Shown: piece after piece, positions 1 through 9,659 of the stretch
Position numbering within the stretch: the stretch's first letter is position 1
Layout of the letters: each line of letters begins with the position of its first letter
Source of the DNA: Geminicoccaceae bacterium
GTDB lineage: Bacteria; Pseudomonadota; Alphaproteobacteria; Geminicoccales; Geminicoccaceae
Reading direction: 5' to 3'
Assembly (NCBI GenBank): GCA_020446285.1
Contig: JAGREZ010000018.1
Location: forward strand, 2,944-13,655
Length of the DNA stretch: 10,712 nt
Made by a program: the position numbers and the translations under genes
The notes under the pieces: generated by a model
Seen by the model: only the letters and a program-made list of their open reading frames with translations
Databases searched by the model: none
Told to the model about the DNA's origin: nothing

Positions 1-588
1 GCCTCCGGCGCCAACGCCATCGCCGTGATCTCGGAAGAGGACAAGCGCGATTTCGTCCTCTCCCTCGGCGCCAGGGCCGCCATCAACCGCAAGGACTTCA
101 ACTGCTGGGGTGAAATGCCCGATCCGATGGATCAGGAAGCCTATGGCAGCTGGCTCAAGGAAGCGCGCAAGTTCGGCAAGGCCATCTGGGACATCACCGG
201 CAAGGGCAACGATGTCGATATGGTATTCGAGCATCCGGGTGCCGCCACCTTCCCCGTCTCGGCGCTGGTCGTGAAGCGTGGCGGCATGGTGGTCATCTGT
301 GCCGGCACCACCGGCTACAAGCTCACCATCGACGCCCGCTACATGTGGATGCGGCAAAAGCGCATGCAGGGCAGCCACTTCGCCAATCTCAAGCAGGCCT
401 CGGCCGCCAACCGCTTCGTCCTCAACCGCCAGGTCGATCCGTGCATGTCGGAAGTGTTTGCGTGGGAGGACATTCCCCGCGCGCACCAGAAGATGCGCAA
501 GAACGAGCACAAGCCGGGCAACATGGCGGTGCTCGTCTCGGCGAAGCGTCCGGGCATGCGTACGCTCGAAGAAGCGATGGAGGACTGA
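1..588 (+). CDS. ccr: Crotonyl-CoA carboxylase/reductase, C-terminal part (5' end outside window)
   Basis: Partial gene: the frame is open from base 1 and gives 195 residues before a TGA stop. It matches the C-terminal third of crotonyl-CoA carboxylase/reductase, a zinc-less member of the MDR superfamily. That enzyme uses NADPH to reduce crotonyl-CoA while fixing CO2, giving ethylmalonyl-CoA in the cytoplasmic ethylmalonyl-CoA pathway. Visible landmarks are the GEMPDP stretch (about residues 34-39), the end of the nucleotide-binding fold (DVDMVFEHPG, VVKRGGMVVICAGTTG), and the family-typical RYMWMRQKRMQGSHFAN. The histidine of GSHF is residue 126 here; from memory it corresponds to a CO2-pocket histidine of characterised Ccr. 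The ending RPGMRTLEEA is also typical. The stop lies four bases before mcd, so the two are almost certainly co-transcribed. Plain acrylyl-CoA reductases are related, but this tail and the mcd neighbour favour Ccr. Confidence 0.93.
   Translation, partial: ASGANAIAVISEEDKRDFVLSLGARAAINRKDFNCWGEMPDPMDQEAYGSWLKEARKFGKAIWDITGKGNDVDMVFEHPGAATFPVSALVVKRGGMVVICAGTTGYKLTIDARYMWMRQKRMQGSHFANLKQASAANRFVLNRQVDPCMSEVFAWEDIPRAHQKMRKNEHKPGNMAVLVSAKRPGMRTLEEAMED
579..583 (+). promoter_or_regulatory. Shine-Dalgarno site of mcd
   Basis: GGAGG lies inside the last codons of ccr, nine bases before the ATG at 593. It supports 593 rather than the ATG at 605 as the mcd start and suggests translational coupling to ccr. 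Confidence 0.7.
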
Positions 589-592
589 GGGC

Positions 593-2278
593 ATGGCCGG
601 CGCAATGATTGAGCCGCTCGCGGATGACGGATCGTCGGCGGATCTGGCACCGCATCTCGATTCTGCGCTGGCCGCCGCCGAAAGGTTGCGCGATGCGGCC
701 ATCGTCGCCCTTCGCCCGGTCGTCAGCCGGGAGGGACGCATCGACGCGGCATTGCTCGAGCGCGAGCAGAATGCCGCTCACGGCCTCGCCTGGTTCGAGG
801 TCTATGTCGAGGGTCTCTGGCAGATGCTCGGCTGGTCGCGGCGGCTGGAGGAGACGGGCCGGCTCGGCGAGCGCGAAGGGCTCATGCGCGACTGGGCCTT
901 CGCCGAATATCTCGCCCGCCTCGCCGGCGGCGTGCCGATGAGCCAGGTGGAATATGTCCGCCCGGCGGACCTGTACATGGACGATGCCGACATCCTCGCC
1001 TTCATGAGCGATCCGGCCGTACGCACCGTCATCCGCGAGGGCGGCTCGGTCGGACGCCGGGCGCGGCTGGCCGAACTGGTGAGCGAGGGCCACACCGGCG
1101 ATCACGGCTATGGCGACGAGACCCTGCAAATGGTGCAGGAGCAGTTCCGCCGCTTTGCCGCCGACAAGGTCACGCCCTTCGCGCAGGGCTGGCATGATCG
1201 CGATGAACTGATCCCCATCGAAATCGTCGACGAACTGGCGGAACTGGGCGTGTTCGGCCTCACCCTGCCCGAGGAGCATGGCGGGCTCGGCATGGGCAAG
1301 GAGGCGATGTGCATCGTCACCGAGGAGCTCTCGCGCGGCTATATCGGCGTGGGCTCGCTCTCGACCCGCTCGGAGATCGCCGGCGAACTCGTCCGGCTCG
1401 GCGGCACGGATGCGCAAAAGGAAGAGTTCCTGCCGAAGATCGCCTCGGGAGAGATCCTGCCGACCGCTGTCTTCACCGAACCCGATATCGGCTCCGATCT
1501 GGCCAGCCTGAAGACCCGCGCCGAGCTTGCCGACGGCGTCTGGCGGGTGACCGGCAACAAGAACTGGATCACCCATGCGGCGCGTGCCGACATGATGACC
1601 GTTCTCTGTCGCACCAACCCGGCGGAGAAGGGCTACAAGGGCCTGTCCATGCTGCTCGCCCGCAAGCCGCGCGGAACGGAGGACGCCCCCTTTCCCGTCG
1701 ACGGGCTCGACGGCAGCGAGATCGGCGTGCTCGGCTATCGCGGCATGAAGGAATATGCCCTTTCGTTCGACGGCTTCGAGGTGCCGGAAGCCGACCTGCT
1801 CGGCGGCGTTCAGGGCCAGGGCTTCAAGCAGCTCATGGCGACCTTCGAGAGCGCGCGGATCCAGACGGCGGCGCGCGCGGTCGGCGTTGCCGCCTGCGCC
1901 TTCGATCTCGGCCTCGCCTACGCGCATGAACGCAGGCAATTCGGTTCCGAGCTCTTCGACTTCCCGCGCGTCTTTCAGAAACTGGCGTGGATGGCGACCG
2001 AAACCATGATCGCCCGCCAGCTCGCACTGCATGCGGCGCGGCAGAAGGACAGCGACCGCCGCTGCGATCTGGAAGCCGGCCTTGCCAAGCTGCTGGGTGC
2101 GCAGGTGGCATTCGCCGCCGCCGACAATGCCCTGCAGATCCATGGCGGCAATGGCTACGCCCGGGAATACCCCATCAGCCGCGTCCTCTGCGACGCCCGC
2201 ATTCTCAACATCTTCGAGGGAGCGGCGGAGATCCAGGCACAGGTAATCGCCAGAAGGCTGCTTTCCGGGGCGAACTGA
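593..2278 (+). CDS. mcd: (2S)-methylsuccinyl-CoA dehydrogenase
   Basis: A 561-residue flavoprotein of the acyl-CoA dehydrogenase family. It is assigned as methylsuccinyl-CoA dehydrogenase, which oxidises (2S)-methylsuccinyl-CoA to mesaconyl-CoA in the ethylmalonyl-CoA pathway. Its N-terminal extension of about 170 residues (HGLAWFEVYVEGLWQM, FAEYLARLAGG) is characteristic of Mcd and absent from ordinary acyl-CoA dehydrogenases of about 380 residues. The canonical fold follows: N-terminal helical domain from about residue 175 (LPEEHGGLGMG), middle beta domain with TGNKNWITHAARAD (320-333), then the FAD-contacting AHERRQFG and IHGGNGYAREYPISR. The catalytic base is expected to be Glu542 in FEGAAEIQ. 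The start at 593 is backed by the GGAGG site; the frame is open further upstream, but that is only ccr read in another frame. Placement right after ccr makes the substrate assignment strong. Confidence 0.93.
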   Translation: MAGAMIEPLADDGSSADLAPHLDSALAAAERLRDAAIVALRPVVSREGRIDAALLEREQNAAHGLAWFEVYVEGLWQMLGWSRRLEETGRLGEREGLMRDWAFAEYLARLAGGVPMSQVEYVRPADLYMDDADILAFMSDPAVRTVIREGGSVGRRARLAELVSEGHTGDHGYGDETLQMVQEQFRRFAADKVTPFAQGWHDRDELIPIEIVDELAELGVFGLTLPEEHGGLGMGKEAMCIVTEELSRGYIGVGSLSTRSEIAGELVRLGGTDAQKEEFLPKIASGEILPTAVFTEPDIGSDLASLKTRAELADGVWRVTGNKNWITHAARADMMTVLCRTNPAEKGYKGLSMLLARKPRGTEDAPFPVDGLDGSEIGVLGYRGMKEYALSFDGFEVPEADLLGGVQGQGFKQLMATFESARIQTAARAVGVAACAFDLGLAYAHERRQFGSELFDFPRVFQKLAWMATETMIARQLALHAARQKDSDRRCDLEAGLAKLLGAQVAFAAADNALQIHGGNGYAREYPISRVLCDARILNIFEGAAEIQAQVIARRLLSGAN

Positions 2279-2568: not shown

Positions 2569-2814
2569 TCAGAGCATGCCGATGGCGGATTTGTAGACGT
2601 CGAGGAGTTCTTCCTGTTCCATGCGGTCGTGGGGCTTCATCTTGCGCAGCTTGAGCAGCTGGCGCATGACCTTGACGTCGAAGCCCTCGCCCTTGGCCTC
2701 CGCGAACACTTCCTTGATCTGTTCACCGAGCTCGCGTTTTTCGTCCTCGAGGGTTTCAAGGCGCTCGATGAAGGATTTGAGCCTGTCGCCGGTCACACCC
2801 TGTACGTCCGCCAT
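2569..2814 (-). CDS. gapR: GapR-like nucleoid-associated protein (DUF2312/UPF0335)
   Basis: An 81-residue protein of the DUF2312 family. The characterised member, Caulobacter GapR, is a tetrameric DNA-binding protein that coats overtwisted, AT-rich DNA ahead of replication forks and transcription and stimulates type II topoisomerases. The family pattern is clear: GDRLKSFIERLETLEDEK (long coiled-coil helix, about residues 9-26), then IKEVFAEAKGEGFDVKVMRQ (33-52), the basic LRKMKPHDR and the closing LDVYKSAIGM. The basic residues in the second and third helices fit the DNA-clamp surface. The start at 2814 is fixed by a strong AAGGAG site ten bases upstream; the longer open frame reaching 2973 has no such support. 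Several copies per genome are common, so this may be the main GapR or a paralogue. Confidence 0.88.
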   Translation of the reverse strand: MADVQGVTGDRLKSFIERLETLEDEKRELGEQIKEVFAEAKGEGFDVKVMRQLLKLRKMKPHDRMEQEELLDVYKSAIGML

Positions 2815-2824
2815 TCCGGGAATT

Positions 2825-2830
2825 CTCCTT
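2825..2830 (-). promoter_or_regulatory. Shine-Dalgarno site of the GapR-like gene
   Basis: The minus strand reads AAGGAG, ten bases before the ATG at 2814. It decides the start against the upstream in-frame codons. Confidence 0.75.
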
Positions 2831-2849
2831 CTGTTCGTGTCACGCAACG

Positions 2850-2878
2850 GCGTAGTGCAGGACCGCGCCACATGCCAA
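2850..2878 (-). promoter_or_regulatory. Possible promoter of the GapR-like gene
   Basis: On the minus strand TTGGCA (2873-2878) is followed after 17 bases by CTACGC (2850-2855). The -35 box is good and the -10 box poor, as often seen in GC-rich alphaproteobacteria. It sits 36 bases before the GapR-like start, in the 97-base gap after the YkvA gene. Weak, pattern-based call. Confidence 0.3.
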
Positions 2879-2885
2879 GCGCAAA

Positions 2886-2901
2886 CCGCTTTCGCGAGCG
2901 G
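2886..2901 (-). terminator. Short hairpin after the YkvA gene, possible terminator
   Basis: CCGCT and AGCGG pair around a six-base loop, ten bases beyond the YkvA stop. On the minus strand the hairpin is followed only by TTTG. The stem is five pairs long, so this is at best a weak intrinsic terminator. Confidence 0.25.
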
Positions 2902-2911
2902 GTGCTCGGCC

Positions 2912-3268
2912 TCACACCCTGTCGGCGCGCAGGCTCCGCAGACGTTCGCGCGCCCTTGCGCGATGCCCGTCATTCACATGGCGACCGAAGAGCGCGATCA
3001 CGGCGGCGATCACCGCCGCATCGTCGGTGAAGCCCATGCCGAGGACGAAATCGGGAATGGCATCCACCGGCAGGATGAAATAGGCGACGGCACCGAACAG
3101 CATGGCCCGTGCGCGCGCCGGCGTCTTCTCGTCGAGTGCGCAGTAGTAGGCCGCGAGAAGATCATCGGCGAACGGCACATGCGCCAGAACGCGACCGAGT
3201 TTCGCCCAGAGCTGCCGGGGTTCGGGCGCACTGGCGGGTTCGGGCAGACGGACGAGGCTCTTTTCCAT
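2912..3268 (-). CDS. YkvA/DUF1232 family protein
   Basis: A 118-residue protein of the DUF1232 (YkvA-like) family. These are small, probably membrane-associated proteins without an established biochemical role. The diagnostic core is present: ARARAMLFGAVAYFILPVDA (51-70), then IPDF (71-74) and GFTDDAAVIAAVIALFG (79-95). Both hydrophobic stretches (about 56-68 and 82-95) could enter or lie on the membrane. The N-terminal part (LPFADDLLAAYYCALD-like, here VPFADDLLAAYYCALD) is also usual for alphaproteobacterial members. The ATG at 3268 gives the usual length, but no clear ribosome site precedes it. The frame stays open to a TTG at 3373; the extra 35 residues look non-conserved and run through a palindrome, so I rejected them. 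The strongly basic tail is typical. Confidence 0.85.
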   Translation of the reverse strand: MEKSLVRLPEPASAPEPRQLWAKLGRVLAHVPFADDLLAAYYCALDEKTPARARAMLFGAVAYFILPVDAIPDFVLGMGFTDDAAVIAAVIALFGRHVNDGHRARARERLRSLRADRV

Positions 3269-3299
3269 GAACAAGGAGATGGGTGCTCGTTCAGGCGTT

Positions 3300-3310
3300 C
3301 GCAAGTTCAG
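3300..3310. repeat. Direct repeat CGCAAGTTCAG, copy 1
   Basis: Eleven-base exact repeat; the second copy is at 3442-3452 and reaches into the last codon region of the enolase-like gene. The left end of the palindrome starts directly after this copy. Confidence 0.55.
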
Positions 3311-3394
3311 TGGATCGAACCCGACATTTGAATCCCGCAGCCGACGAAGCAAGGGCGCGGTTGTCACATTCAAATGTCGGGATCATTTGATCCA
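3311..3394. repeat. Long imperfect palindrome (14-bp perfect arms plus outer TGGATC arms)
   Basis: CCCGACATTTGAAT at 3320-3333 is perfectly inverted at 3368-3381. Outside these arms TGGATC (3311-3316) pairs with GATCCA (3389-3394), with a four-base length difference in the connecting bases. The loop between the arms is 34 bases. The heptamer CATTTGA occurs three times (3325-3331 plus, 3370-3376 minus, 3384-3390 plus). It could be an operator array for the YkvA gene, an attenuator or terminator on leftward transcripts, or the remains of a small palindromic repeat element. There is no U-tract, so a classical intrinsic terminator is unlikely. Confidence 0.65.
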
Positions 3395-3443: not shown

Positions 3444-3452
3444 CAAGTTCAG
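3442..3452. repeat. Direct repeat CGCAAGTTCAG, copy 2
   Basis: Exact second copy of the repeat at 3300-3310. It overlaps the right arm of the hairpin and the stop codon of the enolase-like gene. Confidence 0.55.
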
Positions 3453-4774
3453 GCGGTCAGCGAAGGTTCGGCGGGGCGTTGCGGCAGGTTGCGCAGGGGT
3501 TCGCGGCCGGCGAAGCGTGCGCGATCGCCGAGCGCTTCCTCGATGCGCAGGATCTCGTTCCACTTGGCCATGCGTTCCGAGCGCGCGAAGCTGCCCACCT
3601 TGATCTGCGGAACGCCCCAGCCGACGGCGAGATCGCAGATGGTCGTGTCCTCCGTCTCGCCCGAGCGCGCGGAGACGATGGCACCGAAGCCATAGGCGCG
3701 CGCGGCGTCCCAGGCGGCGAGTGTCTCGCTCAGGGTACCGCGCTGGTTGGGCTTGACGAGGACCGCATTGCAGGTGCCGGCCTGGGCGGCGGCGCGGACC
3801 CTTGCCGCATCGGTGACAAGGAAATCATCGCCGACGATCTGCACCCTTGCGCCATGTTCGCGGCTGAAGGCGGCAAAACCGGCGGGGTCGTCCTCGGCGA
3901 GCGGGTCTTCCACCGAGGCGATGGGATAGCGTGCGAGCCAGCCCGACAGAAGCTCGATCATTCCGTCCGTATCGCGTTCGCTGTCGTCGCGTGCGAGCCT
4001 GTAGACCCCGTTCCTGCCGAACTCGGATGCCGCAACATCGAGCGAGATCACGACCTCCTCGCCGGGTCGCCGGCCTGCCCGTTCGATGGCGGTCATCAGC
4101 GCCTCGAGCGCCTCCTCGTTGCTGTCGAAGGCGGGCCAGAATCCGCCCTCGTCGGCCACGCCCTGCAGGCGACCGCGCTCCTCCATGACGAGGCCGGCGG
4201 CACGGTAGATCCCGGCGGTCCATTCGAACGCCTCGTCGGCGCTCGACGCACCCGGACACATCACCATGAAATCCTGGATATCGACACGCCTTGCGGCATG
4301 CGCGCCGCCGCCGAAAATCTGGATTTCCGGCAAGGGCACACAGTCCACCGCACGATCGCCGGCAAGGCGGCGCCAGAGCGGAACGCCGTCGCTGGCGGCG
4401 GCGGCGCGGGCGGCGGCCATCGAGACGGCGATGGTTGCATTGGCACCGAGACTCCGCCTGTTCTCCGTTCCATCCAGTTCGATCAATGCCCGATCGAGTG
4501 CCTCCTGATCGCCGGCATTCATCCCGGCAAGGCGTGGCGCGATGCGTTCCCTGATGCCGGCAACCGCGCGGCGCACATCGTAACCACCGAGATGCTCGCC
4601 GCCGTCGCGCAGTTCGAGCGCCTCATGCATGCCCTTCGATGCGCCGGCGGGAGCGATGGCCCGCCCCGTGCTACCATCGACGAGCCGTATCTCCGCCTCG
4701 ACCGTCGGCCGGCCGCGGCTGTCCCAGACCCGCCGTCCCAGCACGGTCGCGATGTTCATGGATGCCGGGCTCAT
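3449..4774 (-). CDS. Divergent enolase-superfamily protein (phosphopyruvate hydratase paralogue)
   Basis: A 441-residue protein that aligns end to end with enolase (2-phosphoglycerate to phosphoenolpyruvate), of normal length. Metal ligands are kept: Asp246 (LDVAASEF), Glu289 (SVEDP) and Asp316 (IVGDD). The catalytic lysines Lys341 and Lys392, His159 (GGGAHA), Glu209 (DEGGF) and Ser46 of the loop are also kept. Several near-invariant positions are changed. The SGAST-G loop reads AGASKG (43-48). Yeast Glu168 is Asp168 (VDIQDFM). The SHRSGE motif is SARSGE, losing the histidine (Ala369). The lysine motif reads LVKPNQRG instead of the usual IKVNQIG. These lie around the substrate hydroxyl and the closing loop, so altered substrate use is inferred. 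Enolase-derived carboxyphosphonoenolpyruvate synthase of phosphinothricin biosynthesis is a known precedent. ATG 4774 overlaps the kinase stop and has an AGGAG site; ATG 4759 is the alternative. Automatic annotation would call it eno. Confidence 0.85.
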   Translation of the reverse strand: MSPASMNIATVLGRRVWDSRGRPTVEAEIRLVDGSTGRAIAPAGASKGMHEALELRDGGEHLGGYDVRRAVAGIRERIAPRLAGMNAGDQEALDRALIELDGTENRRSLGANATIAVSMAAARAAAASDGVPLWRRLAGDRAVDCVPLPEIQIFGGGAHAARRVDIQDFMVMCPGASSADEAFEWTAGIYRAAGLVMEERGRLQGVADEGGFWPAFDSNEEALEALMTAIERAGRRPGEEVVISLDVAASEFGRNGVYRLARDDSERDTDGMIELLSGWLARYPIASVEDPLAEDDPAGFAAFSREHGARVQIVGDDFLVTDAARVRAAAQAGTCNAVLVKPNQRGTLSETLAAWDAARAYGFGAIVSARSGETEDTTICDLAVGWGVPQIKVGSFARSERMAKWNEILRIEEALGDRARFAGREPLRNLPQRPAEPSLTA

Positions 4775-5775
4775 GACGTCATCTCCTGAAGCCAGATCTC
4801 GGGATAGCGGGCAAGCCGCTCGGGGGGATCGACGAGAAGGGCCAGGGCTATGCCGCGCACCCTGTTCTTGTCGGACGGTTCGGTAATGTACTCGACCGGC
4901 GACTTGCCGTCGATCCGGCCGAGCAGAAGGCCCGCGAGCAGGCTCGCGGCACGCGCCTCGAGATCATCGGGATGTTCGAAGGTCACGAGCGGCAGATAGG
5001 CGCCATAGAGGGCATTGAAGGCGTCGAGACAGGCTTCGAGCCATTGCCGCTTCCACACGCCCTTGAGCAGCAGGTGATTGAGACAGAAGGCGAGGTCGAA
5101 TGCCGGATCGCCATACCAGGCGCATTCGGCATCGAGGAACACGGGTCCGTGCGGCCCCTTGAGGATATTCTTCGGGCTGACGTCGCCATGCACCAGCGCC
5201 TTCTGCGTCTGCGCCGTGCGCCGTGCCAGGGCCTTGAGCTGACGGGTGACACTCCTGTGACGCGCGGCGGGGGCGAGCAGATAGGGTTCGAGGCGGATCG
5301 AGTGAAAGATCTCGTCGCTGCGGAAACGCGCGGCGACACTCGCCTTGCCTGCCGTCTCGCGGTGAATGACACCGATCGCACGGCCGACCGCGGCGGCGAA
5401 GGCGCAGTCGATCTCGCCATCGGCGAGTTGCGCCTTCCACAAGGGAAAGCGGGCCGGATCGAGATAGTGCATGACGATGGCCGAGCCGGTCTCATCGACA
5501 TGGACGAGCGGCGGCACGGCGTTGGGCAGAACGCGCGAGACGACGTCCATCCAGCCCGCCTCGTAATGGCTCCGTTCCACGGGCGCGCGCCAGTCGGCCT
5601 TGACCTTCAGCTTCGAGAGCGCCCGCTTGACGCAATATTCGTTATGGCCGATGCGCACATGCCAGATGTCGCTCGAGACCCCGCCGGTCAGCGGCTCCAT
5701 GGGCGGAGGCGGGCCGAGTTCGAGCAGACCCGCACGGCGCAGGATCGAGAGAATGTCGCTGTTCCAGTTGACCAT
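4771..5775 (-). CDS. APH-family phosphotransferase (small-molecule kinase)
   Basis: A 334-residue kinase of the aminoglycoside phosphotransferase/choline kinase fold. Visible elements in order: glycine-type loop LTGGVSSDIW (29-38), ATP-binding Lys50 in YCVKRA, helix-C Glu72 in HYEAGW, hinge IVMHYLD (100-106), catalytic Brenner motif LVHGDVSPKNIL with Asp198 and Asn203, and metal-binding FLDAE with Asp215. GDPAFDLAFCLNHLL (222-236) follows. No signal or membrane segment, so it is cytoplasmic. Members of this fold phosphorylate hydroxyls of sugars, choline, homoserine, methylthioribose or antibiotics; the substrate is not predictable here. The stop overlaps the enolase-like start by four bases (ATGA), so the kinase may make the substrate of that protein. 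I chose ATG 5775; the frame extends to a TTG at 5844, but the added residues look unrelated to the fold. The ribosome site is weak (GGGGA). Confidence 0.85.
   Translation of the reverse strand: MVNWNSDILSILRRAGLLELGPPPPMEPLTGGVSSDIWHVRIGHNEYCVKRALSKLKVKADWRAPVERSHYEAGWMDVVSRVLPNAVPPLVHVDETGSAIVMHYLDPARFPLWKAQLADGEIDCAFAAAVGRAIGVIHRETAGKASVAARFRSDEIFHSIRLEPYLLAPAARHRSVTRQLKALARRTAQTQKALVHGDVSPKNILKGPHGPVFLDAECAWYGDPAFDLAFCLNHLLLKGVWKRQWLEACLDAFNALYGAYLPLVTFEHPDDLEARAASLLAGLLLGRIDGKSPVEYITEPSDKNRVRGIALALLVDPPERLARYPEIWLQEMTS
4783..4787 (-). promoter_or_regulatory. Shine-Dalgarno site of the enolase-like gene
   Basis: AGGAG on the minus strand, inside the last codons of the kinase gene and eight bases before the ATG at 4774. 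It supports this start and coupled translation through the ATGA overlap (4771-4774). Confidence 0.7.
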
Positions 5776-5932
5776 GTCGCCGAAGCCGTCCCCGAAAATC
5801 GCCAAAGGCGTGCACCGGCATCGCCGCCCGTACGCGCCGCACAACTAGCAAGCAGGCGAGTGCTTGGCGAGGGATCAATGATTTCCGGCGACCGGGGCTG
5901 ATTTCCGCCGGTCTTCGTGTTATGAATGGAAG
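5776..5932. promoter_or_regulatory. Divergent promoter region between kinase and GMC genes
   Basis: These 157 bases separate two divergent operons and should carry both promoters. Repeats seen: CAAGCA-6-TGCTTG (5849-5866); TGATTTCCG twice, at 5879-5887 and 5899-5907, exactly 20 bases or about two helical turns apart; GACCGG-12-CCGGTC (5890-5913); and CGCCAA/TTGGCG (5800-5805, 5864-5869). The arrangement suggests one or two regulator-binding sites, but no known motif is recognised. Confidence 0.45.
5921..5926 (+). promoter_or_regulatory. Possible -10 box of the GMC gene
   Basis: TATGAA lies seven bases before the chosen ATG at 5933. A transcript from it would begin at or near that ATG, giving a leaderless message. 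No good -35 box is present at 17 bases, so the call is weak. Confidence 0.25.
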
Positions 5933-7525
5933 ATGGAAGAGAGTTTCGATCATGTGATTGTCGGTGCGGGTTCCGCCGGTTGCGTGCTCGCGGCGAGACT
6001 GAGTGAAGATCCGGGCCGATCGGTCCTGCTGCTCGAAGCGGGCGGATCGGATGAGGATGTGCGTGTTGCAACCCCGGCGAAGTTCGGCGGGCTTCCCAAC
6101 ACACGCTTCGACTGGGCCTATCGTACCGCACCGCAACGGGAACTGGCCCATCGGCAGATCGCCTATCCGCGCGGCCGTGGCATCGGCGGTACGGGCTCGA
6201 TCAACTACATGATCTACCTGCGCGGACATCCAGCCGACTATGACGGCTGGCGGGACAGTGGCTGCGAAGGCTGGGGCTGGAGCGACGTACTGCCCTTCTT
6301 CAGACTTGCGGAACATCATCTGGCGCCCGGCGATCCGGAGATTCACGGCAGGGATGGGCCGCTGACCGTTGCCCTGCCTGCCAGACGCTACGAACTGGCC
6401 GAGATGTTTCTCGAAGCCTGCCAGCAGGCGGGAATAGCGTTCAACACCGATCTGAACGGCGATCGGCTCGATGGCTGCGGCTACTTTCCGGGGACGGTTG
6501 CACGGGGCGAGCGCGGCAGCACCGCCCGCACCTATCTTCGCGAGGCGGGCGGACGCCCCAATCTGCGGATCGAGACGGGTGCAACGGTCCTGCGGCTCGT
6601 TGTCGGGCACGGTCGGGTGCGGGCGGTCGAGTATCTTCATCGCGGGCAGAGCAAGCGGGTTTTCTGCGATGGCGAGATCGTTCTTGCGGCGGGAGCGATC
6701 GGCTCGCCGCATCTGCTCATGCTCTCGGGCATTGGTCCGGCGGACGAGCTTGCCGCACTCGGTATCGATCCGGCATGCGATCTGCCGGGCGTCGGCCGCA
6801 ACCTGCAGGATCACCTGCACTACCGTTCGCGCTGGGAGATTACACGGCCGCTTTCCAATTTCGGACGGAACGCGCGGGAAACGGAACGGATCGAGCGCGA
6901 ATATGCGGATGACCGAAGCGGCCCGCTCGCGAGCCATCTGTTCGAATCGGGTGCGTTCCTGCGCTCCGGCACGGATGTCGAGGTTCCCGACATCGAGCTT
7001 TTGATGGTCCCGCATCTGATCAGCCCCGGAGCCACCGAGCTCAGACCGCCGGATCGCCACGGTTTCACGATTCCCGGTTTTCCCACACGGCCGGAGAGCC
7101 GGGGCCGGGTAGCGCTTGCATCGGCCGATCCGCTCGACCGGCCGATCATCGATCCGGGCTATCTGAGCGACCCGCGCGATGCGGATGTAACGATTTCCCT
7201 CATCAGACGCGCGCGCGAGGTCGCCGGCCAGAAGGCCTTCGCATCCATCCTGGGACAGGAGATTTCACCCGGCCCGTCCTGCGACAGCGACGAGGCCATC
7301 CTGAACGATATTCGCGCCATGGCCTCGACATCGTTTCATCCGGTGGGCACCTGCCGGATGGGTATCGACGAGGAAGCGGTGGTCGATCCGCGGCTGCGGC
7401 TGCGCGGACTGGACGGGCTGCGCATCGCCGATGCCTCGATCATGCCGCGCATGAATACCGGACATCCCAACGCACCGACCATCATGATCGCCGAACGCGC
7501 GGCCGCCCTGATGCGGGAAAGCTGA
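5933..7525 (+). CDS. GMC-family FAD-dependent oxidoreductase (choline/alcohol dehydrogenase type)
   Basis: A 530-residue flavoprotein of the glucose-methanol-choline family, of usual length, oxidising a primary alcohol or similar hydroxyl. The FAD-binding Rossmann motif is GAGSAG (11-16) with Glu35 ending the second strand (LLLEAGG). GMC signature 1 is at 80-106 (GRGIGGTGSIN, then YLRGHPADYDGW), and signature 2 at 254-269 (GAIGSPHLLMLSGIGP). The active-site His469 lies in TSFHPVGTCRMG and the second residue is His511 in NTGHPNAPTIM. Signature 1 has GGTGSIN where GGSSSIN is usual. No signal peptide, so it is cytoplasmic or peripheral. Substrate unknown; choline, glycine-betaine-related and long-chain alcohols are family substrates. 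No clear ribosome site precedes the ATG. It faces the kinase/enolase-like pair across a shared regulatory region and is followed after 79 bases by the molybdopterin enzyme, probably in one operon. Confidence 0.9.
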   Translation: MEESFDHVIVGAGSAGCVLAARLSEDPGRSVLLLEAGGSDEDVRVATPAKFGGLPNTRFDWAYRTAPQRELAHRQIAYPRGRGIGGTGSINYMIYLRGHPADYDGWRDSGCEGWGWSDVLPFFRLAEHHLAPGDPEIHGRDGPLTVALPARRYELAEMFLEACQQAGIAFNTDLNGDRLDGCGYFPGTVARGERGSTARTYLREAGGRPNLRIETGATVLRLVVGHGRVRAVEYLHRGQSKRVFCDGEIVLAAGAIGSPHLLMLSGIGPADELAALGIDPACDLPGVGRNLQDHLHYRSRWEITRPLSNFGRNARETERIEREYADDRSGPLASHLFESGAFLRSGTDVEVPDIELLMVPHLISPGATELRPPDRHGFTIPGFPTRPESRGRVALASADPLDRPIIDPGYLSDPRDADVTISLIRRAREVAGQKAFASILGQEISPGPSCDSDEAILNDIRAMASTSFHPVGTCRMGIDEEAVVDPRLRLRGLDGLRIADASIMPRMNTGHPNAPTIMIAERAAALMRES

Positions 7526-7604
7526 ATCTCGTTCCACTTGACGGAGCGCACGCTGCCCCCAAAATGATTCCGCCCTGCCTGCCATTGCCGGAGATCGAGT
7601 TTCC

Positions 7605-9659
7605 ATGAGCGAATTCCACGCTTCCGTCTGCCCGCACGATTGTCCGTCCGTCTGCACGCTGCAGGTGGAGCGGACAGAAGACGGGCGCATGGGCAGGGTG
7701 CGCGGCAGCAAGCTCAATCCCTATACGGCCGGGGTCGTCTGCAACAAGGTCAGCCGCTATGCCGAGCGCTATCATCACGCGGAACGCCTCGCCCATCCCA
7801 TGCGCCGGACCGGTGCGCGCGGTTCGGGCGAGTTCGAGCGGATCGGCTGGGAGGATGCCTTCGATCTGGTCGCCGAGGGACTGGCGCTGGCAGAGCAGGC
7901 GCATGGTGCCGAAGCCGTCTGGCCCTACTGGTATGCCGGAACGATGGGGTTCGTGCAGCGTGACGGCATCAACCGGCTGACGCACACGAAGAAATGGTCG
8001 CGCTTCGATGGCACGATCTGCACCAGGCTCGCCGATACCGGCTGGAAGGCGGGCTATGGCAAACTCTGGGGCGTGCCCTGCGAGGAAGCCGGCGACCTGA
8101 GCGATCTCATCATCGTCTGGGGCTGCAATCCGGTTGCCACCCATGTCAACCTGATGAACCACATCGCCCGTGCGAGAAAGCGCGGGGCGAAGCTCGTCGT
8201 GGTCGATCCCTACCGTACCGGCACGGCGGCGCAGGCCGATCTCCACATCGCCCTGCGCCCGGGGACCGACGGCGCGCTCGCCTGTGCGATGATGCATGTG
8301 CTCTTCCGCGACGATCTGGTCGACCGCGCGCATCTGGCGGCGCACACGGACGCACCGGACGCGCTCGAAGCGCACCTGAAGAACCGATCGCCGGAATGGG
8401 CCGCTCCGATCACCGGTCTTTCGGTGGAGACCATCACCGACCTTGCGCATCTCTACGGCCGCACCGACAGGGCGTGGATCCGTTTCGGTTTCGGCTTCAC
8501 CCGCTCGCGCAACGGTTCGGCCGCCATGCACGCGGTCTCATGCCTGCCGGTGGTCACCGGCAAGTGGGTCCGGGATGGCGGCGGCGGTCTCTACAACATG
8601 CGCGACGTCTATGGCTGGGACAAGACGATGATCGAGGGGCTCGATGTCGTCGATCCATCCGTCCGCCTGCTCGATCAGTCGCGCATCGGCCCGGTTCTCA
8701 CGGGCGACCGCAACGATCTCGGCGATGGCCCCGGGGTTCACGCGCTGTTCATCCAGAACACCAATCCCATGTGCGTGGCGCCGGATCTCGGCCTCGTGCA
8801 CAGGGGGTTCGCGCGCGAGGATCTGTTCATCGCCGTGCAGGAACAGTTCATGACGGATACGGCGAAACAGGCGGATGTGCTTCTGCCGGCGACCATGTTC
8901 GTCGAGCATGACGACATCTATCACGCCTCCGCACACAGCCGCTTTCAGATCGGCTGCAGGATCTTCGAGCCGTTCGCCGAATGCCGCTCCAATCATCATG
9001 TGGTGTGCGGGCTCGCCAAAAGACTGGGCGCTGTGCATCCGGGCTTCGACATGAGCGAACTGGAGCTGATCGAGGATCTGCTCGCCCGCTCCGGTCATCC
9101 CGATCTCGCCACGGTCCGGCGCGAGGGTGGTTTCGACGCGCGACCGGATGCCGACACCCTGCATCAGCGCAACGGCTATCCGACAGCCGACCGGAAATTC
9201 CGCTTCCGCCCCGACTGGAAATCGCTCGGCGATGCGGACGGCAGGATGCCCGAACTGCCGGATCACCTCGAGGCAACCGACGAGATCGGCGGGGATACAC
9301 CCTTTCGCCTCGTCGCCGCTCCCGCCCGGCAGTTTCTCAACACGAGCTTCACCGAACTGGCGAGCGGCCGCGCGCGGGAGGATCGGCCAAGGGCACGCAT
9401 TCACCCGGATGTCATGGCCCGTCTCGGCCTTGAGGAAGGCGACCGGGTCCGTCTCGGCAATGCGCGCGGCGAGGTCGTCCTGCCGGCCATCGCCGGACCG
9501 GGCCAGCATGAGGATACCATCGTCGTCGAGAGCATCTGGCCCAATCCCCATTGGGAGGGCGGTATCGGCATCAACCTCCTGCTCTCCGCCGACCGCGGCC
9601 TGCCGGCGGGCGGGGCCGCCATCCATGACACGGCGGTCTGGCTGCGGACGACCGGATAG
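7605..9659 (+). CDS. Molybdopterin-dependent oxidoreductase with N-terminal [4Fe-4S] domain
   Basis: A 684-residue enzyme of the DMSO reductase/formate dehydrogenase superfamily. The N-terminal iron-sulfur motif is Cys9-x3-Cys13-x3-Cys17 and Cys46 (CPHDCPSVC, GVVCNK), a spacing I associate with uncharacterised short members of this superfamily. The Mo-ligand position appears to be Cys139 (GTICTRLADTG), placing it nearer formate dehydrogenase-type than serine-ligated DMSO reductase enzymes. LIIVWGCNPVATHVN and VVVDPYRTGTA bind the bis-MGD cofactor; QNTNPMCVAPD and ADVLLPATMFVEHDD are family blocks. The C-terminal dinucleotide-binding domain starts near 566 (IHPDVMARLGLEEGDRVRLGN). There is no Tat signal, so it is cytoplasmic, and no electron-transfer subunit lies next to it. 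The start has GGAG twelve bases upstream. Substrate unknown. Confidence 0.9.
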   Translation: MSEFHASVCPHDCPSVCTLQVERTEDGRMGRVRGSKLNPYTAGVVCNKVSRYAERYHHAERLAHPMRRTGARGSGEFERIGWEDAFDLVAEGLALAEQAHGAEAVWPYWYAGTMGFVQRDGINRLTHTKKWSRFDGTICTRLADTGWKAGYGKLWGVPCEEAGDLSDLIIVWGCNPVATHVNLMNHIARARKRGAKLVVVDPYRTGTAAQADLHIALRPGTDGALACAMMHVLFRDDLVDRAHLAAHTDAPDALEAHLKNRSPEWAAPITGLSVETITDLAHLYGRTDRAWIRFGFGFTRSRNGSAAMHAVSCLPVVTGKWVRDGGGGLYNMRDVYGWDKTMIEGLDVVDPSVRLLDQSRIGPVLTGDRNDLGDGPGVHALFIQNTNPMCVAPDLGLVHRGFAREDLFIAVQEQFMTDTAKQADVLLPATMFVEHDDIYHASAHSRFQIGCRIFEPFAECRSNHHVVCGLAKRLGAVHPGFDMSELELIEDLLARSGHPDLATVRREGGFDARPDADTLHQRNGYPTADRKFRFRPDWKSLGDADGRMPELPDHLEATDEIGGDTPFRLVAAPARQFLNTSFTELASGRAREDRPRARIHPDVMARLGLEEGDRVRLGNARGEVVLPAIAGPGQHEDTIVVESIWPNPHWEGGIGINLLLSADRGLPAGGAAIHDTAVWLRTTG

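Follow-up and report, generated by a model that had tools for sequence, protein, structure and literature searches.

The enolase-fold gene at 3449..4774 on the minus strand of the window (the whole 10,712-nucleotide stretch of Geminicoccaceae DNA that was analysed) probably encodes the lyase of a reductase–kinase–lyase module, whose substrate, judging from conserved residues and gene neighbours, would be something other than 2-phosphoglycerate. By fold and by chemistry the protein belongs with enolase and is a variant hidden under the name "eno": it passes the NCBIfam model TIGR01060 (eno; 468.8 bits, cut-off 300), which labels it phosphopyruvate hydratase, and the source names of its relatives read likewise. 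We recognize members of the group by D168/A369 together with a particular type of kinase gene in the same locus, and the window gene has both; it carries Asp168 and Ala369 where an ordinary enolase has Glu168 and His373 (yeast numbering). The features of the window that bear on the argument are as follows.

3449..4774, minus strand: enolase-fold paralogue, 441 aa uninterrupted by stops, with D168 and A369 on the leaving-group side in place of the canonical Glu and His
4771..5844, minus strand: APH-fold kinase, first gene of the pair, frame listed from a TTG
4771..4774, minus strand: ATGA overlap of the kinase stop and the enolase start, read from the sequence
5933..7525, plus strand: GMC-family alcohol dehydrogenase/oxidase, divergent neighbour, with relatives in 8/108 loci
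7605..9659, plus strand: molybdopterin oxidoreductase, with relatives in 7/108 loci

The ATGA overlap likely couples translation of the kinase and enolase genes. The true start of the kinase is probably an ATG near 5775 rather than the TTG, and the first 24 residues of the listed frame are modelled with pLDDT <50. Divergent from the kinase stand the GMC-family gene and then the molybdopterin oxidoreductase gene; in a relative (L154), the dehydrogenase gene separates the kinase gene from this molybdopterin gene. At the far end of the window (1-2278), the last part of a crotonyl-CoA carboxylase/reductase-like gene precedes one for a 561-aa acyl-CoA dehydrogenase that is extended by ~175 residues at its N terminus; we take the two to be the ccr–mcd pair of the ethylmalonyl-CoA pathway. 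Between this acyl-CoA dehydrogenase and the paralogue (2569-3373) lie genes for a GapR-like DNA-binding protein and a DUF1232 protein, for which we saw no link to the present finding.

Residues that set the paralogue apart

A sequence-only reading of this DNA had named eleven residues of the protein, and all are as it stated (A43, K47, H159, D168, E209, D246, E289, D316, K341, A369, and K392). Its observation of an enolase paralogue with kept catalytic residues and changes elsewhere is confirmed, and its interpretation overall is partly supported. Ordinary enolase (TIGR01060; structures 4rop from Synechococcus elongatus, 3tqp, and 1e9i) shares the fold and two-domain plan of the paralogue, and the two have in common the metal ligands, Lys341, Lys392, Glu209, the phosphate residues Arg370 and Ser371, His159, and Ser46; in yeast numbering, Lys345, Lys396, Arg374, Ser375, His159, Glu211, and the metal ligands are all found in the window protein. 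They differ in that the paralogue has Asp for Glu168, Ala for yeast His373, Ala for yeast Ser36, and the replacements N152Q, N155G, G207A, and A213W, as well as a kinase partner.

We compared 81 paralogues (the window protein and the best 80 of at least 572 relatives) with 31 complete ordinary enolases from genomes that carry both; the incomplete sequences from L002 and L146 were excluded from the residue counts, which reduced the ordinary set from 33. Positions 43, 168, and 369 were Ala, Asp, and Ala in 81/81 paralogues and Ser, Glu, and His in 31/31 ordinary enolases, so these are not chance changes, and the substitutions reported by the sequence-only reading are genuine. Five further positions (152, 155, 207, 213, and 393) divided as cleanly, with Q, G, A, W, and V in every paralogue and N, N, G, A, and T in every ordinary enolase, and Arg163, present in all 81 paralogues, is P, N, or S in ordinary enolases. 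By contrast with these positions, the residues that the reading took to retain proton abstraction were untouched: the metal ligands, K341, K392, R370, S371, H159, Q167, D208, and E209 were invariant in both sets, and the loop serine S46 (yeast Ser39) was kept in all 81 paralogues. The 80 loci had been found with the peptide patterns ADEGG[FWY]WP and PLP[EQ]IQI[FL]G, which contain positions 152, 155, 207, and 213; conservation there was thus partly selected for, while 43, 163, 168, 369, and 393 lie outside the patterns. In 24 loci found without the patterns, 152, 155, 168, 207, 213, and 369 were kept in 24/24 and R163 in 22/24. Distant kinase-fused proteins (46-51% identical) retain D168 and A369 even where several of them have N152, S155, and G213, which makes the D168/A369 pair the most stable mark of the group.

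The suggestion that the new lysine at position 47 indicates a more acidic substrate fared less well. Position 47 is T in 61, K in 12, M in 4, and R in 4 of the 81 paralogues, and in 24 further loci it is never K and is R in 12. A basic residue does recur (16/81 and 12/24), and a role in some lineages is possible, but lysine itself, with 12/81 and 0/24, was rejected as a sign of an acidic substrate across the family.

The placement of the changes on the leaving-group side, by contrast, agrees with the closest solved homologue. In the structure of S. elongatus enolase with phosphoenolpyruvate (PEP), Glu168 and His367 form hydrogen bonds to a water 3.5 Å from C3 (PMC8996150), and these are the same two positions as D168 and A369 of the window paralogue. 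The same source gives 1.2e5 M–1 s–1 for this enzyme acting on 2-phospho-D-glycerate (PMC8996150). Because the residues that hold the C3 water in ordinary enolases are replaced, the leaving group or the C3 substituent would differ from that of 2-phosphoglycerate. The claim that the substrate is a different one is, on this comparative evidence, supported as probable.

The reading had also proposed a tree. In one of 78 rows, a branch with an SH-aLRT of 99 separates 37 ordinary enolases from the remaining 41 rows. This tree was built by a quick method (LG+G4, no bootstrap), is unrooted, and included 28 of the 81 paralogues. Six divergent fusions fell nearer the ordinary side, and the kinase-linked rows make up one clade under some rootings only, so the tree does not establish that the group arose once.

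Coexistence with ordinary enolase and spread

An ordinary eno was expected elsewhere in the window genome (4.2 Mb in 619 contigs, 87% complete), and one is present on another contig (G000:C74). This second enolase-domain match adjoins a kdsA-like gene and is cut by the contig end; it has Ser43, Asn152, Asn155, and Glu168, with the His373 part beyond the contig edge and two residues unread. Ordinary enolase was likewise found in 30 of 31 genomes carrying relatives of the paralogue (from 32 of the 80 loci, less L073), where the ordinary enolases were 42-48% and the paralogues 62-74% identical to the window protein. Among 40 genomes around the window genome, itself included, 19 had the paralogue (58-100% identical) and 18 of these also had ordinary enolase; within the window's own family, 17 of the 24 genomes sampled carried the paralogue. 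The lone paralogue-bearing genome in which we saw no ordinary enolase is apparently the same assembly in both sets and is 86% complete. One genome on a single contig with 99% completeness (G162) has both genes on one chromosome. If the product of the kinase were 2-phosphoglycerate, an enolase paired with that kinase would be redundant in such genomes. As a side observation, ordinary enolase stands in one chain with a PF00793 domain (DAHP synthase/KdsA type) in P0226 and L002.

Relatives of the paralogue are encoded in at least 572 stretches of the genome collection. The best 80 of these, which we kept, come from Acetobacteraceae, other Rhodospirillales, Rhizobium, Methylobacterium, Burkholderiales, Sneathiella, and Streptomyces, and the closest named matches to the window protein are from Geminicoccaceae; one (L005, Geminicoccaceae bacterium) coincides in contig and coordinates with the paralogue match of a same-genus genome. 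At an E value of 1e-125 or better, the paralogue occurs in 23 of 289 alphaproteobacterial genomes, while in the phylum of one Streptomyces member it occurs in 1 of 198 genomes, that member itself.

The kinase partner and the wider gene clusters

Beyond the earlier reading, the analysis added a near-obligate kinase partner, a reductase, fusions with the kinase, and an idea of how large the family is. The kinase passes PF01636 (APH; 55.2 bits, cut-off 23.2), and its catalytic HGD...N and D motifs are invariant in 25/25 sequences. Its fold is nearest that of 5-methylthioribose kinase, to which it is only 16-17% identical (2olc, 2pyw) and whose model, TIGR01767, it fails (52.7 bits, cut-off 275).

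Genes in the loci were called by a simple GC-position rule, and pairing was counted by tblastn with translated neighbours (identity thresholds of ≥40% for the kinase, ≥35% for the reductase, and ≥33% for the LacI-type regulator and the FAH-type hydrolase). A kinase gene was found in 102 of 108 related loci, in 83 of them directly upstream on the same strand. None was found in 20 control loci around ordinary eno (up to 5 kb per side, from 19 genomes that also carry the paralogue). Since the paralogue loci are longer, spanning up to 10-12 kb, the fair comparison is that of a kinase directly upstream, 83/108 against 0/20. As these loci had been reached by way of the enolase, we also counted from the kinase side: at E 1e-45 or better, the kinase occurs in 24 of the 289 alphaproteobacterial genomes, and these include all 23 with the paralogue. 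The sole case lacking a paralogue at our threshold is a kinase 45% identical to that of the window (G035:C1:14130-15146), in a genome whose single enolase match is 46% identical. Because the kinase hardly ever occurs without the paralogue although ordinary enolase is at hand, we infer that its product is not 2-phosphoglycerate.

Natural fusions point the same way. A length-shifted search for long enolase proteins returned at least 294 at E 0.001, of which we analysed the best 120. By local comparison, 94 of these contain the kinase, always N-terminal and with both parts whole in 75, 5 contain a dehydrogenase, and 21 contain neither. Positions 168 and 369 of the 94 kinase fusions read D/A in 89, D with 369 unaligned in 4, and T/A in 1, and the ordinary Glu/His pair is absent from all 94; the 21 long enolases with neither partner are Glu/His in 15 and D/A in 6. 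A Bacteroidota example in which both parts are whole (P0216, 46% identical) bears the name Polaribacter staleyi. The five proteins with a dehydrogenase part were rejected as examples of true fusion: the enolase ends before residue 375 in four and the dehydrogenase is cut early in the fifth, so that by their sequences they look like frameshift run-ons of neighbouring genes, and the 19 incomplete kinase fusions may include further run-ons.

A reductase gene, for either of two kinds of D-2-hydroxyacid dehydrogenase or for a ketopantoate-reductase-like protein, was found in 76 of the 108 loci and in 0 of the 20 control loci. One locus with the whole trio has its reductase gene at L035:11281-12216. 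Among solved structures, the dehydrogenases come closest to glycerate dehydrogenase/glyoxylate reductase and to phosphoglycerate dehydrogenases. A dehydrogenase gene of this sort is absent from the window contig, and the best match elsewhere in that genome is 45% identical.

Other companions vary from lineage to lineage, so that the substrate may differ between them. A LacI-type regulator is encoded in 22 of the 108 loci and an FAH-type hydrolase in 26. Twenty loci from Rhizobium, Burkholderiales, and Streptomyces carry genes for a homoprotocatechuate-dioxygenase-like protein, a CMD-family protein, and a Zn-alcohol dehydrogenase, with a cupin in 18 of them, and five Rhizobium loci, and only those of Rhizobium, have a PEP carboxylase gene (the one scanned scored 1113.7 bits, cut-off 815). 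In Paracoccus, Roseibium, and L158 the paralogue is accompanied by a LacI regulator, the kinase, an FAH-type hydrolase, and SDRs, the first two also having a sugar ABC transporter, while in loci from Methylobacterium, Labrys, and some others the genes around the kinase and paralogue look unrelated to the pair, as judged by eye.

The dioxygenase-like neighbour proved a weak guide to aromatic substrates. In the one sequence aligned (L147:13421-14422, with a similar gene in 19 other loci), the residues aligned with the metal ligands are kept, while the residue aligned with His200 of homoprotocatechuate 2,3-dioxygenase is replaced; this protein may not be an ordinary extradiol dioxygenase. Several other loci deserve mention in their own right. 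In a Roseomonas-type cluster seen in 14 loci, tandem frames of ~844 and ~807 aa lie downstream of the dehydrogenase (L035:12387-14918 and 15243-17663), and the first had no match in Pfam or NCBIfam. A record titled Akkermansia muciniphila (L027) has reductase, kinase, and enolase genes in the arrangement, and at almost exactly the lengths, found in Limnohabitans (L028, L063), and its title looks wrong. In L022, a galactarate-dehydratase-like gene (5930-8691; SAF and GD_AH domains, under the family cut-off) and a 391-aa FAH-family gene lie directly behind the kinase and paralogue.

We also ran the model for carboxyphosphonoenolpyruvate (CPEP) phosphonomutase on 392 genomes from the genus of a Streptomyces member, and it gave one match above its cut-off (672.1 bits, cut-off 420). 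The genome with this match has four enolase-type genes of three kinds, two of them with the ordinary residues. The homologue adjoining the phosphonomutase gene (A46, Q168, S209, H369) is presumably CPEP synthase, the enolase relative of the phosphinothricin pathway, an identification based on its position next to that gene. Like the window paralogue, this one example is altered on the leaving-group side and keeps the metal ligands and lysines, but it is 36% identical to the window protein over 398 aligned positions, has other neighbours, and has lost the acid residues while keeping the histidine, whereas the window protein has S46, D168, E209, and A369. The likeness to CPEP synthase that the sequence-only reading had raised for comparison was thus not borne out. 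The fourth enolase of the same genome is 44% identical to the window protein and has D168, A207, A369, and V393. At L205 (G550:C211:16701-36700, positions 4672-12006), genes for a LacI regulator, an FAH-type hydrolase, the kinase, a D168/A369 enolase, and the dehydrogenase stand together, with the enolase between the dehydrogenase (62% identical to a Rhizobium one) and the kinase (55%). As this enolase is only 44% identical to that of the window, the trio persists beyond divergence at half of the residues.

Proposed reaction, competing explanations, and meaning

We propose a module of three steps. From the neighbouring genes, a D-2-hydroxyacid dehydrogenase or ketopantoate-reductase-like enzyme would reduce a 2-oxo acid to a D-2-hydroxy acid, and the APH-fold kinase, whose motifs are intact, would phosphorylate the 2-OH of such an acid, one other than glycerate. 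The paralogue would then bind the 2-phosphoryloxy acid on two Mg2+, with Lys341 taking the C2 proton, Lys392 and Mg2+ stabilizing the aci-carboxylate, and Glu209 and Asp168 helping the C3 group to leave, to give a phosphoenol. The group leaving C3 would be larger than, or other than, hydroxide, or else C3 would be substituted. Several observations count against a module with a changed substrate: 32 of the 108 loci have no reductase within the stretch examined, the window contig has no dehydrogenase gene, one kinase-bearing genome (G035) lacks a paralogue at our threshold, PEP carboxylase accompanies the pair in Rhizobium alone, and D168 is still acidic. In addition, the dehydrogenases, most like glyoxylate/glycerate and phosphoglycerate dehydrogenases, would fit glycerate too.

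Most simply, the product of the paralogue is perhaps PEP, in which case the substrate would be a 3-substituted D-lactate and the PEP carboxylase gene beside the Rhizobium clusters would make sense. We tentatively entertain a route of this kind, somewhat short of an even chance, that would start from a 3-substituted pyruvate, which the FAH-type hydrolase perhaps releases in some clusters. This would be reduced to the D-2-hydroxy acid and phosphorylated at the 2-OH, and the enolase relative would expel a C3 group other than water to give PEP directly. Were it true, the route would take in several hundred genes at present annotated as eno. The substrate may instead be a glycerate substituted at C3, from which a substituted phosphoenol would form. 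Sulfolactate, with sulfite as the leaving group, was considered because galactarate-dehydratase-like and sulfatase-like genes lie near some members. L-2-phosphoglycerate was set aside by argument: the paralogue keeps the residues that determine from which face the proton is taken, and its partner reductases are members of D-specific families.

The strongest competitor of the proposed module is a dedicated isozyme of ordinary enolase that would complete a path from hydroxypyruvate through D-glycerate and 2-phosphoglycerate to PEP (and on to oxaloacetate), as in the serine cycle. The second half of that cycle runs through hydroxypyruvate reductase, glycerate 2-kinase, enolase, and PEP carboxylase, an order of enzyme types that the module repeats, although its kinase is of another family and its enolase has altered leaving-group residues. 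The neighbours match this path step by step (a glycerate dehydrogenase/glyoxylate reductase-like protein, a kinase, an enolase, and, in Rhizobium, PEP carboxylase), and the paralogue passes the NCBIfam eno cut-off and keeps the other catalytic residues. For this explanation to hold, the APH-type kinase would have to be a glycerate 2-kinase and the enolase would have to tolerate both substitutions, yet Glu168 and His373 occur in 31/31 ordinary enolases and 0/81 paralogues (the best 80 of at least 572 and the window protein), and the paralogue accompanies the kinase in 23 of 24 alphaproteobacterial genomes even though ordinary enolase is nearly always present. In Mycobacterium tuberculosis enolase, moreover, Ala for this Glu is reported among the non-functional mutants, its activity being abolished, and S42A retains ~5%; Asp at this position is absent among the mutants described in the accessible part of that source (PMC10619443). 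We therefore regard the isozyme as unlikely, while giving it some weight.

It is also conceivable, but distinctly improbable, that the kinase and paralogue replace a sugar-acid dehydratase and act on 2-phospho-aldonates with a long C3 substituent. The clusters of Paracoccus, Roseibium, and L158, with their regulator, hydrolase, SDRs, and (in the first two) transporter, would suit such a route; the Paracoccus FAH protein resembles 2,4-didehydro-3-deoxy-L-rhamnonate hydrolase (352 bits, cut-off 500), the annotation of the Paracoccus and Roseibium stretches includes no further sugar-acid dehydratase, and the fold likeness of the kinase to 5-methylthioribose kinase fits as well. The phosphoenol, however, would need dephosphorylation before the FAH step, and we saw no enzyme for this, while the active-site residues compared in these three members are as elsewhere except for V in place of P at 342. 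The constancy of the active site across differing neighbours suggests instead one small common substrate.

That the paralogue is a non-catalytic or regulatory partner of the kinase is very hard to credit: fusion and gene overlap do speak for a tight bond between the two, but all 81 paralogues (again the best 80 of at least 572 and the window protein) retain the metal ligands, the two lysines, Glu209, Arg370, Ser371, and His159, which an enzyme without activity would hardly be expected to do. We give next to no credence to a CPEP synthase or other phosphonate-pathway enolase, for which one locus (L045) offers a PEP-mutase/methylisocitrate-lyase family gene directly before the kinase, because that gene scores 250 bits as methylisocitrate lyase against 227, below both cut-offs, because the one homologue adjoining a CPEP phosphonomutase gene differs in its residues (Ala46, Gln168, Ser209, His369 kept; 36% identity), and because the nine window genes scanned include no CPEP phosphonomutase or gene of that type.

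The reductase–kinase–lyase module thus remains our preferred reading. We found no description of a kinase-paired enolase family or pathway in open-access PMC texts. Enolase is treated as a family with one reaction, and a recent survey puts 27% of its sequence space as experimentally unexplored (PMC8996150). A subgroup with two diagnostic residues, a fixed kinase, and natural fusions would give part of that space a defined second function, and the annotation of databases would be corrected accordingly. In Geminicoccaceae, Acetobacteraceae, Rhizobium, Burkholderiales, and Streptomyces, it indicates a step yet to be characterised.
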